A stretch of 45,602 nt of DNA. It comes from Bacteroides sp. GTDB taxonomy: Bacteria; Bacteroidota; Bacteroidia; Bacteroidales; Bacteroidaceae. The notes beneath the pieces were generated by a model. The model saw only the letters and a list, made by a program, of their open reading frames with translations. It did not search any database and was not told the DNA's origin. Positions 7,742 to 45,475 of the stretch are shown in pieces. The translations under genes were made by a program, and so were the position numbers. Every line of letters starts with the position of its first letter. Position 1 is the first letter of the stretch. The stretch spans positions 1-45,602 of the forward strand of contig JAGATY010000007.1 in assembly GCA_017621035.1 (NCBI GenBank). Reading direction: 5' to 3'.

Positions 7742-9511
7742 ATGATTAAACTTTTATTAGCTGCCTTGCTGGCAGTAAGCCCTTGCTTCGTGTTTGGTCA
7801 GACCGCACAAAAGAAAGCAAGCGAAAAGCCCCTGATTGGTATCTCGTGCCAACGCCCGGGCAACAATTCACAAAGTAGACTGACTTATACTCAGTCTGTC
7901 ATCAAAGCCGGAGGCGTTCCCGTACTTATACCGATTACCGAAGACAGCCTAGTCTTGCGTAACATCATTCAACGTTTGGACGGTATTGTAATGATTGGCG
8001 GCGAGGACATTCACCCCTCTTACTATGGCGAAGAGCCTATCCCGGAGATGGGAAGTGTTGACCCCGTGCGCGACGTGTATGACATTGCCCTCATCAAAAT
8101 GGCTCACGACCATAACATCCCCATGCTGGGAATCTGCCGTGGCGAGCAACTCATCAACGTGGCTTTTGGCGGTACGCTCTATCAAGACATACCGGCTCAG
8201 CATCCGGACACTACGGTAAACCACAGCCAATCTGAGCCGAGCAGCACCCCCACCCACTTGGTGAACATTGTTCCCGGTTCGCAAATTGCCAACATCTTCG
8301 GTGAGACACAGATGATGACAAACACTCATCACCACCAAGCTGTTAAGAAAGTGGCTCCGGGCTTCAAGATTACCGCCTGGGCAACCGACAGCATCCCCGA
8401 AGCTATTGAAAACGTAGAGGGCTATCCCATCTGGGCTACTCAGTTCCATCCCGAAACCCGCACCGTGGCAGGCGATGACACCTCTTTGCGCATCTTCCAA
8501 TTCTTGGTAGGCAAGGCAGACACCTTCCGCCGTGCCAAAGAGATTCATAAGAAGTACCTGACCGTAGATACTCACACCGACACTCCGCTCGACTTCCACG
8601 GCGACTATAACGTTGGCCGACGCGAGTGGACACAGGTTTGCATCCCCAAGATGGAAGAGGGTTACCTAGACGGACAGTATCTGGCTTGCTGGATTGCCCA
8701 AGGTCCGCGCGACGAGAAACACAGTGCTGAGGCAGTTCAACTCATCGACTCACTCATCGACTGCATCTACAAGCAGGTTGAAATGAATCAAGACGTTTGT
8801 GCCATTGCACGCACGGCTGACGATTTGGCTCGCATCAAGGCAGAAGGTAAGAAGGCTTTCTACATCGGCATCGAGAACGGTTACGGTTTGGGTAAGGACT
8901 TGAACAACATCAAACGCTTCCAAGAACGTGGCGTGAGCTACATCACCCTGTGTCACACCAAGCACAACGACCTCTGTGATAGCTCTTCAGACTTCACCCC
9001 GGGTGCAGGCGGTCTGACACCGATGGGTAAGAAGGCGGTTAAGATGATGGATAAACTGGGCATCTTGATTGACCTCTCTCACGCACACGAAGACACCTTC
9101 TGGGACGTAGCCAAGGTTTCCAAGCACCCGCTCTTTGCATCACACTCTTCAGCAAGAGCCTTGCTCGACCACGACCGTAACCTTACCGACGAGCAGTTGC
9201 GTGCCATTGCCAAGAGTAATGGTGTAGCCCAGGCTTGTTTCGTTGACCTCTTCATCAACAAGAATCCTAAGGAAGCAACCCTGGAAGACTTCATGAATCA
9301 CCTCGACCATATGATTAAAGTGGCAGGCATCGACCACGTGGGAATCGGTTCCGATAGCGATGGTGGCGCAGGCGTGAAAGGTTGCCAAGGCGACAATGAC
9401 CTTATCAACATCACCGTCCGACTGCTGGAAAGAGGTTACTCGGAAGAGGACATTGCCAAGATTTGGGGTGGCAACTTCCTCCGCGTAATGAGAGAAGTGC
9501 AAGGTAAATAA
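7742..9511 (+). CDS. Secreted fusion: class I glutamine amidotransferase-like (C26) plus membrane dipeptidase (M19)
   Basis: 589 residues with a signal peptide (about 1-20, cleavage after FVFGQ or just before). Residues about 28-255 form a C26 gamma-glutamyl hydrolase domain with the nucleophile Cys132 in GICRGEQL and the catalytic His236 of FHPE. Residues about 271-589 form an M19 renal-dipeptidase barrel with the metal pair H278-x-D280 (VDTHTDTP), LCHTKHND, DLSHAH and GSDSDGG. The first half should cut gamma-glutamyl bonds and the second L-x dipeptides. Together they could degrade gamma-glutamyl peptides such as glutathione (yielding Cys-Gly) in the periplasm; this pathway is inferred. A -7 box is at 7706-7713 and a terminator follows. 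Confidence 0.88.
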   Translation: MIKLLLAALLAVSPCFVFGQTAQKKASEKPLIGISCQRPGNNSQSRLTYTQSVIKAGGVPVLIPITEDSLVLRNIIQRLDGIVMIGGEDIHPSYYGEEPIPEMGSVDPVRDVYDIALIKMAHDHNIPMLGICRGEQLINVAFGGTLYQDIPAQHPDTTVNHSQSEPSSTPTHLVNIVPGSQIANIFGETQMMTNTHHHQAVKKVAPGFKITAWATDSIPEAIENVEGYPIWATQFHPETRTVAGDDTSLRIFQFLVGKADTFRRAKEIHKKYLTVDTHTDTPLDFHGDYNVGRREWTQVCIPKMEEGYLDGQYLACWIAQGPRDEKHSAEAVQLIDSLIDCIYKQVEMNQDVCAIARTADDLARIKAEGKKAFYIGIENGYGLGKDLNNIKRFQERGVSYITLCHTKHNDLCDSSSDFTPGAGGLTPMGKKAVKMMDKLGILIDLSHAHEDTFWDVAKVSKHPLFASHSSARALLDHDRNLTDEQLRAIAKSNGVAQACFVDLFINKNPKEATLEDFMNHLDHMIKVAGIDHVGIGSDSDGGAGVKGCQGDNDLINITVRLLERGYSEEDIAKIWGGNFLRVMREVQGK

Positions 9512-37128: not shown

Positions 37129-39228
37129 CTAAAGTTTCAGTAAAGAGATTGCCGTAGTTTTTTGATTATATATCATCACATGGGAACCTACTGTGTTGAT
37201 AAACAATTTGTAATACAAGTCCCGTAACGAAACTGTAGGGTCATCGGTTATTGTTTCAAGCAGTGTAGAAGTAAAGCGATTGCTCATCCATACACCTAGC
37301 CCACCGTTGAAGATGTCAGCCTTTGAGGTTTCCCACGGACTGGCTGCCGTAATGCCTAACAATCCCGGAACACCTTCACATACCTGCAGCATACTCCCGG
37401 AATAACAGGTCTCTACCAGACAAAGCAATTTACGAAATTGTTCTTTACCACTCAACAGTTGTACAAATTGCTGTAACTGAGAGGCAGACAAACTCATATC
37501 TGTATCGCCCCAACAGAACTCCTGATAGTTCCCATGCCCACTCCAAAAGAACAGAACATTGTCTGTTGATGTGCTTTGAATAACTTCCGGTAAACGTTCT
37601 GAAACTTCTCCTGACAAGATTGTTCCTATGTCTTCTGGTTTCAGGTCAGACAGATGATAGTCTATGAGCAAATCGTGATACAGATTCTCACCGCCTACAG
37701 CAACCTGTACTACCCCACCGTTGGGATTCGCACTGTTCCAAGCAATATCATCTTCCATTATTAGAACAATATGATCATCGGTATATCCGGATTGCTTCAG
37801 CAACTGATACATGGCTAGTACATCCGCCTGATGACGATAGTTCTGCCAACCGCAAGAACCGGCCACAAGCAAAGCCCATTTCTCTTGTAAGTCGGGATAA
37901 GTCTTGCCCTCTACCGTTTCGTCGAACTCTTGCATCTGCTCCACTTTCCAATTCCATCCGGCCAACGTGGCATCGGTGCGTTTACTTCCGTCGCTGCTGT
38001 TGTAATCCAGCGTGATGTAGTGGCCGTTGTAAATTTTGAAGTGACTGTAAGTGGTGTGCAGCACATTGGTGTAGACTTTCGAGTCAAAGTTGAGCGAGCC
38101 GGATGCTCCCCGCACATCAGGGGCGATTCCGGTCGCCAACGCATCAATAACCTTGCACATATCCTCAACCAACCAGCCGCCATAAGGTTCCTCACGACCG
38201 TCTACCACCTTGCGGAGTGCTTCGTTCAGTCCCAGCTCCGGTTGCAGGTACTGCATCCACGCTGCATATCCCACCAGCATGGCGGCATCGTACATCTGCG
38301 ATTCTCCCAACGTCTCCTCTTCTTCAAAGTAGACCTTGTAGGAGACACCGAAACCCGATTCGGGGTCAGAGCTGAAAGCCACGCCTTCCAGTCCCTCTAT
38401 GTCGCCCGCATCCAGTAGAAGGACATCGGATCCATACGCCGTGTCCGAATAGAGCGTGCGCGGTGCCGTACCGGTGCGGACTGCCTGTTGGTGAAACATC
38501 TGCTGCATGACTGCCACGTCCCTTACTTCCGAAGGGATGCAAACCACGAAGTCTGCTTCCGAAGCCGCCACTTTCTGTACCGTCTCGATAAGGTTAGTGC
38601 TGGAATAGGGATAGATGCCTTTCACTTGCAGGCCCAACTCATCTGCCTGAAAAGCGAACCAATCGATGAAGGTCTTTCCGTAACTATCTTCTCCGTTGGC
38701 GAGCAGTGCTACGCTTTCCGCTCCATAGTAGAGTGCCTTGGCAAGCAACACTTCGCATTGGGTAATGTCCGTTTCCGTCATCGCCCATAGATAACCGTCG
38801 GAATAGGCACGCACCAGTTCGGCAGTGGTGGCCGGGGTAAGGAATGGCTTTCTGTACTTGGTGAATATCGGTGCCATGATTTCGGCATTCGAGGAGTAAA
38901 GTCCGCCAATCACTGCCACCACTTCTTCGCGTTCGGACAGTGTACGAGCCAGTGCCTTTACTTCTTCTGTACTCTCATCGTACCATTCATATTTCAGCCG
39001 GATGCCTTCGCTTTGGTTGCGGAAAGCCGCCTCCAGGTTTCGGGCAACCCATTCCAGTGTACGTTTCCAATGGGCATCCAGCCCGTTTTGCATGGGAAGC
39101 ACGACGGCAACCGTACGCTCGTGCCAAGTGATGTTCCCGCTGTTCGTAGGAGCATCGTCGCTGCTACAGCCTGTTGCCATCCAAAGGAGGAAAAGCAGCG
39201 GCAGGATTAGGGGATTAGTTCTCTTCAT
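37129..39228 (-). CDS. Surface lipoprotein: type I periplasmic-binding domain fused to legumain-like (C13) endopeptidase
   Basis: 699 residues. The lipobox ends MATGC (Cys21), followed by SSDDA, an acidic start that in Bacteroides favours surface display. Residues about 37-410 form a Leu/Ile/Val-type binding fold (AVVLPMQNGLDAHW, AVIGGLYSSNAEIMAPIF, SVALLANGEDSYGKTF). Residues about 449-699 match legumain: WALLVAGSCGWQNYRHQAD, IVLIMEDDIAWNSANPNGG, catalytic His565 in SGHGN, catalytic Cys608 in VETCYSGS, then SHVMIYN. Arg465 and Glu606 of the Asn-binding S1 pocket are kept; the third pocket residue seems replaced (Val where legumain has Asp). Its start overlaps the upstream binding-protein gene by 14 bp. 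I do not know of this fusion being described. Confidence 0.88.
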   Translation of the reverse strand: MKRTNPLILPLLFLLWMATGCSSDDAPTNSGNITWHERTVAVVLPMQNGLDAHWKRTLEWVARNLEAAFRNQSEGIRLKYEWYDESTEEVKALARTLSEREEVVAVIGGLYSSNAEIMAPIFTKYRKPFLTPATTAELVRAYSDGYLWAMTETDITQCEVLLAKALYYGAESVALLANGEDSYGKTFIDWFAFQADELGLQVKGIYPYSSTNLIETVQKVAASEADFVVCIPSEVRDVAVMQQMFHQQAVRTGTAPRTLYSDTAYGSDVLLLDAGDIEGLEGVAFSSDPESGFGVSYKVYFEEEETLGESQMYDAAMLVGYAAWMQYLQPELGLNEALRKVVDGREEPYGGWLVEDMCKVIDALATGIAPDVRGASGSLNFDSKVYTNVLHTTYSHFKIYNGHYITLDYNSSDGSKRTDATLAGWNWKVEQMQEFDETVEGKTYPDLQEKWALLVAGSCGWQNYRHQADVLAMYQLLKQSGYTDDHIVLIMEDDIAWNSANPNGGVVQVAVGGENLYHDLLIDYHLSDLKPEDIGTILSGEVSERLPEVIQSTSTDNVLFFWSGHGNYQEFCWGDTDMSLSASQLQQFVQLLSGKEQFRKLLCLVETCYSGSMLQVCEGVPGLLGITAASPWETSKADIFNGGLGVWMSNRFTSTLLETITDDPTVSLRDLYYKLFINTVGSHVMIYNQKTTAISLLKL

Positions 39229-40216
39229 ATTCCTTTTCCTTTAAGATGGCAATTCCTAAATATTCTTTCATTGCTGTCCCCAGTGCCTCCTCGTAATCGG
39301 GTGACAAAAGCCACTCCACACAACCGCTTTCTAAACCATACAAATGGGCTGAAGGGAAAGCTCCCGTTTCTATCCACTGCGTCAGTTGCTCCTCCAGCAG
39401 GCGGTCGATGTGTTTTACCACCGAACCTGTGATTTGCGTACAGAGGGGCGACTGGTCAACATCCATGCCTGCCGTATAAATTCCTTTGGGGTATTCGCGC
39501 AGATAGCGGTAGATGCCCATATTGGAACCGCCGGCTATGGGAAAGATGAAGCCGTACAGCTGTGCCCATTCAAACATATTGCGGTAAGCTGTTTCTGCCG
39601 AAGAATAGCCCGTCCAGTCGTCGGCCAGTGCCAGTGTCGCCACTTCCGTCGCTTCTGCAAAAAAACGATAACCGTCGGTAAAACCATCCACGCCCTCTTG
39701 CACGGAAGCATCTTCCGAGTTGCCCAACAGCACCAAAGGGGGTAACGGTGTACAGCATACTGCCGCAACGCCTGCTAGGAAAGAGGCTCCATACATGGAT
39801 ATGTCAAAGCTGTGCAAGGGAAGACCATCGGGGTTCTTGCTTTCAAAGAGTAGAATTTCCTTGTTCCCGATGGGCGGGTGGTTGGGAAGCAGTCTCTTCG
39901 CCATTGCCTCGTAGTCGGAGGCTGCCAGTACAAACAGCGAAGATACCTCGCTTTCTTTTTCCAACCAAGTGCGAAAAACTTCCTCCGCCTCGGCTTCCGA
40001 AGCGGGATTGTAGAAGTAGAAGTCAGCTTCCGCATGGGCTTTGCGCACTCGCTGAATCCCTGTCAATAGGCAGTCGTTGTAGCCCATATCGCCCAGTCCG
40101 TTTACCGAAAAGAGAATATGGAGTTGTTTGCGTACCTCAGCGGGTGTATCGCTGTCGCCGCAAGCTGTCAGAAGGCAAGCAAACGCCAGAATGTAGAAGC
40201 AGTGGAGGTGTTTCAT
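39215..40216 (-). CDS. BMP/PnrA-like substrate-binding lipoprotein
   Basis: 333 residues from the ATG at 40216 (MKHLHCFYILAFACLLTACG; the longer frame upstream lacks a signal). The lipobox LLTAC gives Cys19, followed by GDSDTP. The fold is of the Bmp/PnrA type: LHILFSVNGLGDMGYNDCLLTGI, SSLFVLAASDYEAMA, PIAGGSNMGIYRYL and AGMDVDQSP. Family members bind nucleosides or similar solutes for ABC uptake, but no permease or ATPase gene is near. The stop overlaps the start of the legumain fusion gene (translational coupling), and it lies 23 bp after the preceding lipoprotein gene. Confidence 0.82.
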   Translation of the reverse strand: MKHLHCFYILAFACLLTACGDSDTPAEVRKQLHILFSVNGLGDMGYNDCLLTGIQRVRKAHAEADFYFYNPASEAEAEEVFRTWLEKESEVSSLFVLAASDYEAMAKRLLPNHPPIGNKEILLFESKNPDGLPLHSFDISMYGASFLAGVAAVCCTPLPPLVLLGNSEDASVQEGVDGFTDGYRFFAEATEVATLALADDWTGYSSAETAYRNMFEWAQLYGFIFPIAGGSNMGIYRYLREYPKGIYTAGMDVDQSPLCTQITGSVVKHIDRLLEEQLTQWIETGAFPSAHLYGLESGCVEWLLSPDYEEALGTAMKEYLGIAILKEKEYEEN

Positions 40217-40239
40217 ACGGCAAGTATTTCCGGAATGTG

Positions 40240-41681
40240 TTAATTGTAGGGTATGCTGGCTTTTTCGTCCCAAAGGTCTTTCTCCCAAATGGTGTACTTC
40301 TTGCTCCAGGAGGCCAGTGCCCATTTCCATATTTTGATTTCCGCACTCAACTTGCCGCCCACCGTAACAGCTCCTGACGTAGTGAAGTCGAACGTCTGTT
40401 CCTTGGCGTTGACCGCCATACCAAACTCTGTCCCGATGGATGGGCCGAATGTGACTTTCGGACCGGCAATGTCATACAGTTTCAGACCGGCATATATTTT
40501 CAGCCCTACTTCGGCACTTGCAGTCGCTTCAAAGGGGTTGACCACAGAGAAGTCGGCCGTAACGCTTCCGTCCGAAGTTTTCCTTTCGCTCCAACCGCCT
40601 GAATAGTAAACACCTGCATCGTAGCTGGCCTTGAAACTGAAGTCTGTCTCAAAATGGCACTTTCCTGTAAGGCTCAGTTCGGCATAGCTTTGCAAACCGG
40701 CGTCGCACTTGATAGCAACAGGAATGGGACCTACCCAGAACACGGCACTAAAACTGCTGAACTGGGCGAGTTTCTCCTCCTTGCTTGTGGAGAGGCTCTT
40801 CTCTATCTCCAGCCCGGTGGTCAAGTCCAGTCCGAAGTCGCCATAAACGGCACATTCAAAACTCTTCAGCTTGAACCATTTGGTCTTGATGTTTACCCGC
40901 ACGCCGGCCTTTGCCTTCAGTTGGGTGTCCTTGATGTAGAGGCGTGCCTTGAGTTCGCTCTCCACTCCGTCTTTGTTTTGGCTATTTTTGTCATCATCGT
41001 CTTTCTTGTCGGAGAAGTTCAGTGAGAAGGTTCCCAGTTTCTTGTTCACATTGATGATGTTGAAGCTGGCGTTGCTTCGGGCTATGTCTTCGGCGGTGTA
41101 GTACACCTTTCCTCCGGGGCTGCGTGTTTCGGCATCACTTCCTTCGTACTCTACGCCGGCTTCTTCCAAAATAATGACAGCCGGATGGATAACGCCCTCA
41201 TCATCTATATAGCGGTTGTAGTTGTCCACTGTCACACCGCTGCGGGTCATTCGGGTAGGCTGATTGAAGTCCACATAGATGTCGGTGTCCAGGTCAAGGT
41301 CGTTGTCGGGAAGCACGTCGCCCAGGTCACCGCTGACGGTAGTCAGCAGCAGACGGTCTCCCTGTTCCTTAAATTCAATTACGTTGCGCACAAAAGTGTC
41401 GTATCGATGCTTTTCCAAATGGTTATAGGAATGGTGTCGGCATTGGCAGCCTCAAAGTCGGCCCCGATGCTCTCCAAGTAAGTGCAACTGACGCTGATTT
41501 GCGTCGTGTCGGAAGAAATTATCTGCACATCGTCTTCGTCATAGAAAGTGTCGTAGGCCAAGACGATGGGGTTGGAAGCAAAGTCCTCGCGTTCGGTAGC
41601 AATCGGTTCATCGTCGTCGGAACAAGAAGTGAATAACAGTGGGAGCAGTGTCAGCACCCACAAATGAAATGTCTTTTTCAT
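40240..41681 (-). pseudogene. Large beta-rich surface lipoprotein, interrupted by a -1 frameshift
   Basis: The first frame starts at the ATG at 41681 (MKKTFHLWVLTLLPLLFTSC, Cys20, then SDDDEP, a strong Bacteroides surface-export signal) and runs to a TAA near 41379. The second frame continues without gap from about 41418 to 40240 and has no signal of its own (EKHRYDTFVRNVIEF ...). Adding one T to the T4 run at about 41392-41395, or one A to the A4 run at about 41412-41415, restores a single protein of about 480 residues. The C-terminal 250 residues are repeats of beta strands (KARLYIKDTQLKAKAGVRVN). It could be a sequencing error, a true inactivation or a phase switch. Function unknown; first gene of the operon. 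Confidence 0.75.
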
Positions 41682-41724: not shown

Positions 41725-41754
41725 CAAAAGTATGAATTATATTTTATAAACAAA
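41725..41754 (-). promoter_or_regulatory. Promoter of the three-lipoprotein operon
   Basis: TTTG (41754-41751), 18 bp, TACTTTTG (41732-41725) on the minus strand. Spacing is one base below the usual range. Confidence 0.7.
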
Positions 41755-44025: not shown

Positions 44026-45104
44026 CTATTCTTTACAAAGTATAACATGCTTCTCCCCATTTAATGAGCCAAAGATGCCCCAGCCATTTTCTACATTGGA
44101 ATGAATGTATGAGCTTTCTGCAAAATCGTTATCTGAAGTAATGCGATAAATCATCATGCTTTTGTAATAAAGGTAGAAGTCCTTAGGCATTGACTGTAAC
44201 TCTATAATCAAGTAACGCTTTTTCATGTCGCCGGCATTTACAACCGTATATGGAAGCCAAGACTTTACATCAAGCGTGTATTCTCCCCCATTAAACAGAT
44301 GGTCATCAAACACATTGGAAAAATAAGCACTCCATCCTCCCCATCCACGAGCAATGCAAGTGTCTTTAAAAATCTCATCCTCAGACTTATATACATCTTG
44401 ATAGTAATAATAATCATACTTTTCAACATACCCGGCATTTCTAACTTTCAGACGATAATAATTCTCCTCATCACCGGGATCTTTCAAACGTAGTTTAATA
44501 TGGGCTACAGAATCAGATGCTGCTGTTATCGTCATAGGATTATTGGTTGACTCCACAGAAACAGGTTCATATCTTACTTCACAATTCAGTACCTCCAGTT
44601 GCTGGGCTTTCAACACTGTTGTTTCCGTCTTGATTCCTTCTCCATCATCCGAATCGGCTATTGATACCTGAATATGGTCTCCTTCTGCAGGTCGGTAATT
44701 ACTATGATACATGTAAGTATTACTATTATATTATATTTCATTTCATACTGCTCACTTCCGTTTACCAATATGCTCACCTTAGCATATCTATAACTATACT
44801 CTTTCACCATTTCGTCATAGCTCCAGTCCTTCTCATCAGGATAGCTCCCACCAACTTGATGGTTCGGAATCCAGCAACCCAAGCCTTCACTATAGTAGTC
44901 ACGTGGTATGATAACAGGAGCCTCCGAGGAGAGATATGACTTTGAAACATAAAGAGTAAGCAATGAGTCCGGGGTTGCTATGCCATTGATAACCAGTGTT
45001 CGTTTATCATCACCATTCAGCCCATCTAAATCAATAACCTTCTCACAAGAAAGGGTCATAAGAAGGGTTACTACTAAGACTACTATCCATTTTACTCGCT
45101 TCAT
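44026..45104 (-). pseudogene. DUF4249 lipoprotein gene, frameshifted
   Basis: The first frame starts at 45104 (MKRVKWIVVLVVTLLMTLSC, lipobox Cys20, then EKVIDLD, typical of DUF4249). It reads VINGIATPDSLLTLYVSKS and loses the frame after EQYEMKYN. The second frame resumes with SNTYMYHSNYRPAEGDHIQVS and runs to 44026 (ILCKE). The break lies in the AT-rich run at about 44715-44740, which holds the short repeat TATAATATAATAG. DUF4249 proteins are outer-membrane partners of TonB-dependent receptors; the receptor end is directly upstream. Inactive unless the shift is a sequencing or phase event. Confidence 0.8.
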
Positions 45105-45109
45105 ACTCT

Positions 45110-45475
45110 TTAAAATTTAAGTGAATAACTGACTGAAGGCATGAAAGGAAGCAGGCAAACGCCTTTTAGCACTACTTTGTTTTTGTCATACCCCCAATAA
45201 ACATTAGAAACATTCAAGCGATTGTACAGATTATAAATAGAAAAACTGAGCGTACTCTCTATACTCTTTCCAAACAGTTTGCCATTCATGTGGCAATTCA
45301 TACTAACATCTAACCGATGTATGGCAGGCAATACATAGCCATTACGTTCTTTATAAGAACTCATAGGAAAGAATTTATAAATATGGTCGGGGAGATCCGG
45401 GGAAGGTGATTTTTCAAAGTTACCATGAATAAAGCTCACTCCACATAAATGACTACTATTATAACGTGAGTTCGG
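45110..45475 (-). pseudogene. C-terminal remnant of a TonB-dependent receptor
   Basis: About 120 codons in frame: LIPNSRYNSSHLCGVSFIHG at the 5' side, then GYVLPAIHRLDVSMN, SFSIYNLYNRLNV and the final aromatic strand FMPSVSYSLKF, the ending of an outer-membrane beta-barrel. Upstream the frame meets a TGA close to 45490, where the sequence becomes that of an insertion sequence. The 5' part of the gene is therefore cut off, at least within this window. It lies 5 bp before the DUF4249 gene, so both were one transport unit. Confidence 0.8.

Follow-up and report, generated by a model that had tools for sequence, protein, structure and literature searches.

Legumain, the asparaginyl endopeptidase (AEP) of peptidase family C13, carries a C-terminal prodomain and belongs, with family C11, to a shared caspase-like clan; bacterial gasdermins are pore-formers paired with a caspase-like protease in the cytoplasm, and the BSAP toxins have been described as single toxins. 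BSAPs are MACPF antibacterial proteins of Bacteroidales (PMC12853789), AEP cuts the MACPF protein perforin-2 in dendritic cells, the cut not being needed for pore formation in vitro (PMC7614779), and C11 lipoproteases such as fragipain and doripain B, which are lipid-anchored cysteine proteases of Bacteroidales, act on secreted antibacterial proteins: fragipain, located at the surface, activates Fab1 and is also found in strains without these toxins (PMC8406203), doripains activate BcpT (PMC9308784), and DpnB activates two-component CDCL pore-formers on target cells (PMC11169675). Here we describe a minus-strand locus in a 45,602-nt stretch of the gut bacterium Bacteroides sp. (assembly GCA_017621035.1, contig JAGATY010000007.1; the whole stretch is called the window), in which a lipoprotein gene (gene 1), a gene for a BMP-type binding lipoprotein and a gene for a fusion of a binding domain with a C13 protease follow one another (Table 1). 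By its sequence, the BMP-fusion pair is a conserved two-gene module, which we interpret, at slightly under an even chance of being right, as an envelope protease that responds to a ligand and processes lipoproteins encoded in the same operon. It is made of known parts in an arrangement that appears to be undescribed and is akin to the surface-protease-processed proteins of Bacteroidales; our search, confined to the accessible parts of open-access papers, found none that seemed to describe the fusion, its BMP pairing or the MACPF link reported below.

In Pfam, residues 40-319 of the 699-aa fusion match Peripla_BP_6 (E = 1.2e-19) and residues 450-692 match Peptidase_C13 (PF01650; profile positions 1-247 of 258; E = 3.6e-46), the only peptidase family matched; a C11 (clostripain) domain was not found. 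Among solved structures the best match is human legumain (5e-32), followed by plant asparaginyl endopeptidases/ligases (6idv, 3.1e-24) and glycosylphosphatidylinositol (GPI) transamidase subunits (7w72, 3.5e-23), and the front half matches the branched-chain amino-acid binding protein 3td9 (7e-11). His565, Cys608, Arg465 and Glu606 all align with human legumain. Across 59 aligned family members, the window included, the His and the Cys are each kept in 58, Arg465 and Ser635 in all 59, and the Glu606 column holds Glu in 50 and Asp in nine. The S1 pocket of human legumain, which we take to consist of Arg44, Glu187 and Asp231, has Asn650 of the window protein at its third position (Asn in 48 members, Asp in ten, Thr in one). 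What the fusion has in common with legumain is thus the C13 domain, the His-Cys dyad, the Arg and Glu of the S1 pocket and Ser635. It differs in this mostly Asn position and in having an N-terminal binding domain and a lipid anchor, the lipobox Cys21 being invariant in 59/59 members; moreover, the protein ends 19-48 residues past the GSH motif in 59/59, which leaves no C-terminal prodomain in the family. The N-terminal binding domain would be the obvious candidate for a regulator of the C13 domain. The presence of a GPI transamidase subunit and an asparaginyl ligase among the solved matches brings up another activity, a transpeptidase joining the lipoproteins of the operon with one another or attaching them to a surface group, for which the multi-subunit MACPF sets of related loci might be natural substrates; with legumain itself as the best solved match, we regard this as very improbable.

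To place the module in a wider context, we collected 86 fusions scoring above 400 bits in 84 loci (L011-L026 and L059-L126; L and G numbers label loci and genomes), which cover part of the matches of the family search (60 places fetched, then eight more) and reduce to 70 distinct fusion genes, one per 90% cluster, the window fusion lying outside this set. Neighbours within six genes were grouped by single-linkage BLAST clustering. A BMP gene lies directly upstream of 66 of the 70: 63 by clustering, two (L019, L068) through matches cut by contig ends, and L076 through its 90%-alike copy L017, its own BMP gene having been masked by an over-long open reading frame (ORF). With start codons picked by a simple rule, the gap between the two genes is zero or negative in 50 of the 65 measured pairs and at most 30 bp in 59. 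In the window the BMP ORF matches PF02608 (E = 3.4e-16) and overlaps the fusion gene by 14 bp, through which the two are likely to be translationally coupled; its genome has one C13 match and one Bmp match, both at this locus. The fusion, the catalytic and pocket residues, the overlapping BMP gene and the three Pfam families put forward in a preliminary description made from the letters alone were therefore all borne out.

The four fusion genes without BMP are those of L083, L100, L118 and L122. The last, a paralogue at L122:8844-11057 in G255, is the only one of the 59 aligned members to have lost both His and Cys, which are replaced, and is a probable pseudoprotease; it sits downstream of a TonB-type receptor gene (partial copy scanned as L008:2-1300). 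In L095 and L109, the BMP-fusion pair is tandemly duplicated within one operon.

In a search with the family alignment, the fusion was found in 70 of 399 genomes of the same family, from 14 of 30 genera. The fusion alignment matched two of 395 genomes in a phylum sample, the second match covering the binding domain only, and the window protein as query found six of 295 genomes drawn from the order; the window's own genome is counted in each of these totals. A scan of named genomes gave 16 fusion loci, three of them in Fibrobacter; the module is found in Bacteroidales plus Fibrobacter. C13 occurs beyond this architecture, since 13 of the 38 genomes with a C13 match (among 201 of the family) have weaker matches only and no fusion match. 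Carriage as mobile cargo on plasmids or phages was rejected, as tblastn found no match in either collection.

Liv-type and BMP-type transporters both use BPD_transp_2 permeases, and Peripla_BP_6 and BMP/PnrA proteins are type I solute-binding proteins, whose domain families and conserved residues recur here. Unlike those proteins, however, the present pair has one member fused to a protease, and no cognate permease was found: BPD_transp_2 is absent from the window's genome in a genome-wide search, and 30 of the 31 other genomes with a fusion lack it too, the single exception having it on a contig other than the fusion's; 12 of the 14 control genomes gave a match in the same search. Among 693 neighbour rows, a motif search picked up three ABC-ATPase-like proteins, each encoded on the opposite strand. 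The absence of transporter subunits noted earlier thus holds well beyond the window, and as the permease is missing from 31 of the 32 fusion genomes and no ATPase-like neighbour shares the strand, we rejected an ordinary ABC uptake system. The BMP protein nevertheless is likely to bind a ligand, as judged from G41, D42, D47, G249 and D251 (numbered from the residue after Met), which presumably lie in the binding cleft and are retained in 60-63 of 65 rows. This conservation, and the fact that both binding families are classic solute receptors, would also suit nutrient scavenging, in which an envelope peptidase is accompanied by amino-acid- and nucleoside-type binding proteins catching the released products; the lack of permease and same-strand ATPase, which argues against uptake, together with the patchy distribution of the fusion and its MACPF linkage, makes such a role improbable.

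Upstream of the pair, relatives of the window carry a variety of lipoprotein genes. The commonest large neighbour family, c3, lies on the same strand near 20 of the 70 fusion genes (19 regions, as L095 and L109 each hold two fusions), usually as two or three genes in tandem. Of 50 distinct c3 proteins (51 rows), 45 were scanned, with MACPF found in 40, BACON in 25 and the NCBIfam model BSAP5a in two. By their MACPF domain these proteins resemble BSAPs; they differ in forming tandem paralogue sets with a dedicated protease module. We hand-picked 32 fusion genomes, 19 with c3 at the locus and 13 without. The former contain 44 MACPF matches, of which 42 are no more than about 8 kb away from the fusion and the remaining two are both in G510, and the latter have none; because of the hand-picking, these figures tell where the genomes keep their MACPF genes and not how frequent MACPF is. 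A tree of the MACPF-type proteins shows supported paralogue clades of about 485, 785 and 580 residues, of which eight regions hold one each. L067, L077 and L119 contain all members of a second set (about 420, 710-800 and 430 residues), of which L074 has two in the gene calls and a third match in the genome MACPF search. Each clade has one member per locus, with L095 and L120 deviating.

On a tree of the fusion proteins, 19 of the 20 MACPF-linked rows fall into one supported clade of 25 rows, and the MACPF label requires seven changes, compared with 17.7 in shuffles; this was a quick tree with long-branch warnings, on which L074, L076 and L096 were set to MACPF by hand, since the called operon does not include their MACPF genes. 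The lipoprotein family c5, on the other hand, is scattered, with six changes vs 6.8 in shuffles, which suggests exchange of payloads. Other lipoprotein neighbours of the 70 fusion genes are c2 (31), c5 (eight), c7 (six) and the gene-1 family (four). Many of the loci with c2, a loose family of 160-560 aa without a clear Pfam match (alignment A3; e.g., L079:11122-12300; the cluster includes one opposite-strand ORF, in L013), are also MACPF loci. Most often c2 is found just upstream of BMP, in many loci between the MACPF genes and BMP, and this position may mark it as an immunity or accessory protein.

Acidic residues after the lipid Cys are the consensus of a surface-export signal. As had been described, they follow it in all three window products: SDDDE in gene 1, GDSD in the BMP protein and SSDD in the fusion. 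In the collected loci, the mean number of Asp/Glu in the five residues after this Cys is 1.93 for the fusion (lipobox in 54/70), 1.80 for BMP (49/64) and 2.16 for c3 (44/50), as compared with 1.18 for other neighbours (133/448), all based on a simple lipobox search that gives false calls. The fusion may thus be located at the cell surface. As a lipid-anchored cysteine protease of Bacteroidales it resembles the C11 lipoproteases, from which it differs in belonging to C13; to our knowledge, those have neither a ligand-binding domain nor a BMP partner. Bacterial gasdermin with its protease would be a comparable pairing, but a cytoplasmic one. A known phage-defence system was rejected, the fusion giving only a weak PADLOC caspase match (E = 0.001).

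According to the proposed mechanism, the fusion and the BMP protein would be placed in the outer envelope, where their binding domains may sense a small molecule or each other, after which the C13 domain would cleave one or more lipoproteins from the same operon: MACPF sets in the one clade, c5, c7 or the gene-1 family elsewhere, and in the window a member of the gene-1 family. A more specific version, which we put forward tentatively and at well below even probability, is a sensor-protease-perforin system in which a small molecule bound to the BMP/binding-domain pair licenses the legumain of the envelope to process a MACPF pore of several components that might kill other cells; it could be viewed as a self-sufficient counterpart of complement or of perforin-2 primed by legumain, with window-type loci having the same switch and a different lipoprotein payload.

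The module may instead be protective, with the protease destroying misplaced or incoming pore-formers or attackers at the producer's surface and the binding domains recognising them, in an immunity or damage response. The 13 hand-picked fusion genomes without any MACPF match fit this role. So does the location of the module, in L018, L019, L023 and L107, beside or inside RND efflux genes (taken by us, from sequence clustering, to be AcrA/AcrB-like and TolC-like), some with c7 lipoproteins. Moreover, immunity genes are described in Bacteroidales toxin operons, namely for a surface lipoprotein of the CDCL operon (PMC11169675) and RFab1 after fab1 (PMC8406203). We nevertheless consider a protective role unlikely, as co-assembly or activation would explain the linkage to conserved MACPF paralogue sets no less well and c2 is by position the better immunity candidate.

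The window copy itself is damaged, or appears so. The preliminary description had treated gene 1 as one lipoprotein gene, which it is not in this copy: it is split over two ORFs in different frames, of 100 and 392 aa, whereas seven relatives have a single ORF of 455-663 aa (e.g., 531 aa in L022, 523 aa in L024 and 455 aa in L129). In addition, the window fusion leaves the frame of its family in the last residues, and the tail motif that relatives conserve is present in an overlapping frame. Other genomes carry intact copies of both gene 1 and the fusion; the window copy may be decayed or mis-assembled, and may no longer be fully functional; its genome is a draft of 93 contigs, in which assembly error is not told from decay. 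Further along, in the region 44026-45439, a DUF4249 match that sets in close to the start of its ORF begins at position 75 of the profile; with no Pfam match for the adjacent ORFs 44658-45104 and 45110-45439, another gene there may be frame-broken. Taken together, the split gene 1, the off-frame tail and the DUF4249 match might mean that the locus is a decaying remnant with nothing functional now, but this is rather improbable given that the fusion keeps its catalytic residues and BMP an intact frame, and that base-level errors in the assembly would explain the breaks just as well.

These broken frames are one of several points that weigh against an envelope protease acting on lipoproteins of its own operon. 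On the fusion tree the window does not belong to the MACPF-linked clade; its closest neighbours there are L025 (B. cellulosilyticus) and L012, near whose fusions no MACPF gene was found. MACPF is missing from the window's whole genome and from the pieces of gene 1 in Pfam searches; the MACPF link therefore reaches the window by kinship only and informs the module, not this copy. Among the 71 tree rows, 37 carry no MACPF, c5, c7 or gene 1 in the operon. MACPF is also present in seven of 30 hand-picked fusion-free genomes, with one or two matches each, so that MACPF genes do not need the module, and the gene-1 family occurs without the fusion in G584. Gene 1 was rejected as a hidden MACPF protein, because profile comparison with MACPF aligned the signal peptide only, in what was a weak test with a shallow alignment of five sequences. 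Asn650, at the position of Asp231, makes specificity for Asn uncertain, and we infer cleavage, ligand and location alike from sequence.

The first description had also proposed to see whether the three genes always go together, and they do not: the gene-1 family lies near only four of the 70 fusion genes, compared with 66 for BMP, and in two of those four loci it is on the fusion's strand beside BMP. Overall, that description was right about the C13 fusion, the BMP pairing and the missing transporter, and it overlooked the frame breaks; the MACPF link, found in relatives, was not visible to it. Over the family as a whole, gene 1 has matches in 13 of 301 genomes, mostly partial and within longer proteins. 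A complete member in G584 (L129:856-2223) is flanked on both sides by near-identical ORFs that we presume to be transposase-like. As a BSAP gene 1 was rejected: its BSAP5b match (E = 0.005) spans residues 1-56 only and is no evidence, because BSAP5b and similar models also match the signal regions of other lipoproteins. The same fate befell c5 as a hidden MACPF protein, of which only an N-terminal stretch, probably BACON-like, was matched with a shallow alignment. Solved structures gave nothing useful for gene 1 or c5, and the fusion, the BMP protein and both parts of gene 1 stayed below the cut-off of every NCBIfam model.

A protease that carries a ligand-binding domain of its own has the build of a receptor-enzyme, here placed outside the cytoplasm in many genera of one Bacteroidales family, and it offers a candidate function for binding proteins that lack a transporter. 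If the fusion does process MACPF proteins, it would make a bacterial legumain-perforin pair and explain how some MACPF proteins are switched on; if true, this would be a testable link from a chemical signal to antagonism among gut bacteria.

Upstream of the three genes lies a promoter-like element reading TTTG-N18-TACTTTTG. It fits exactly what we take to be the Bacteroides promoter consensus, in agreement with the promoter proposed for this position, and it is weak on its own, as the window contains four matches to the pattern vs 1.07 expected.

Table 1. Features of the BMP-fusion locus, in window positions.
Feature	Position	Strand	Basis
Promoter-like element, Bacteroides type (TTTG-N18-TAnnTTTG)	41725..41754	-	Exact pattern match
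Gene 1, 5' piece: lipoprotein signal (Cys-SDDDE) and N-terminal 100 aa; frame stops here	41379..41681	-	Matches intact relatives L022, L024
Gene 1, 3' piece, other frame: 392-aa ORF, remainder of gene-1 family	40240..41418	-	Alignment A8; no Pfam family above cut-off
BMP/PnrA-type lipoprotein (PF02608), lipid Cys then GDSD	39215..40216	-	PF02608, E = 3.4e-16 (longer ORF scanned)
BMP stop region/fusion start overlap, 14 bp	39215..39228	-	Coordinates
Peripla_BP_6-Peptidase_C13 fusion lipoprotein, 699 aa	37129..39228	-	Pfam and solved-structure matches
Ligand-binding (Peripla_BP_6) domain, residues 40-319	38272..39111	-	Pfam match
C13 legumain-like protease domain, residues 450-692	37153..37881	-	Pfam, legumain alignment, family alignment
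Arg465	37834-37836	-	Codon within C13 domain
His565	37534-37536	-	Codon within C13 domain
Glu606	37411-37413	-	Codon within C13 domain
Cys608	37405-37407	-	Codon within C13 domain
Fusion C-terminal tail off family frame; conserved tail motif in overlapping frame	37129..37190	-	Family alignment

A few other observations were made along the way. In alignment A4, four of the 22 proteins match a secretory lipase, and a protein combining Peptidase_C10 with a BspA-type leucine-rich repeat region (L069:203-2851) is encoded upstream of c2, BMP and fusion genes. Elsewhere in the window, a single ORF (7742-9511) combines Peptidase_C26, of the glutamine amidotransferase type, with a membrane dipeptidase of family M19.

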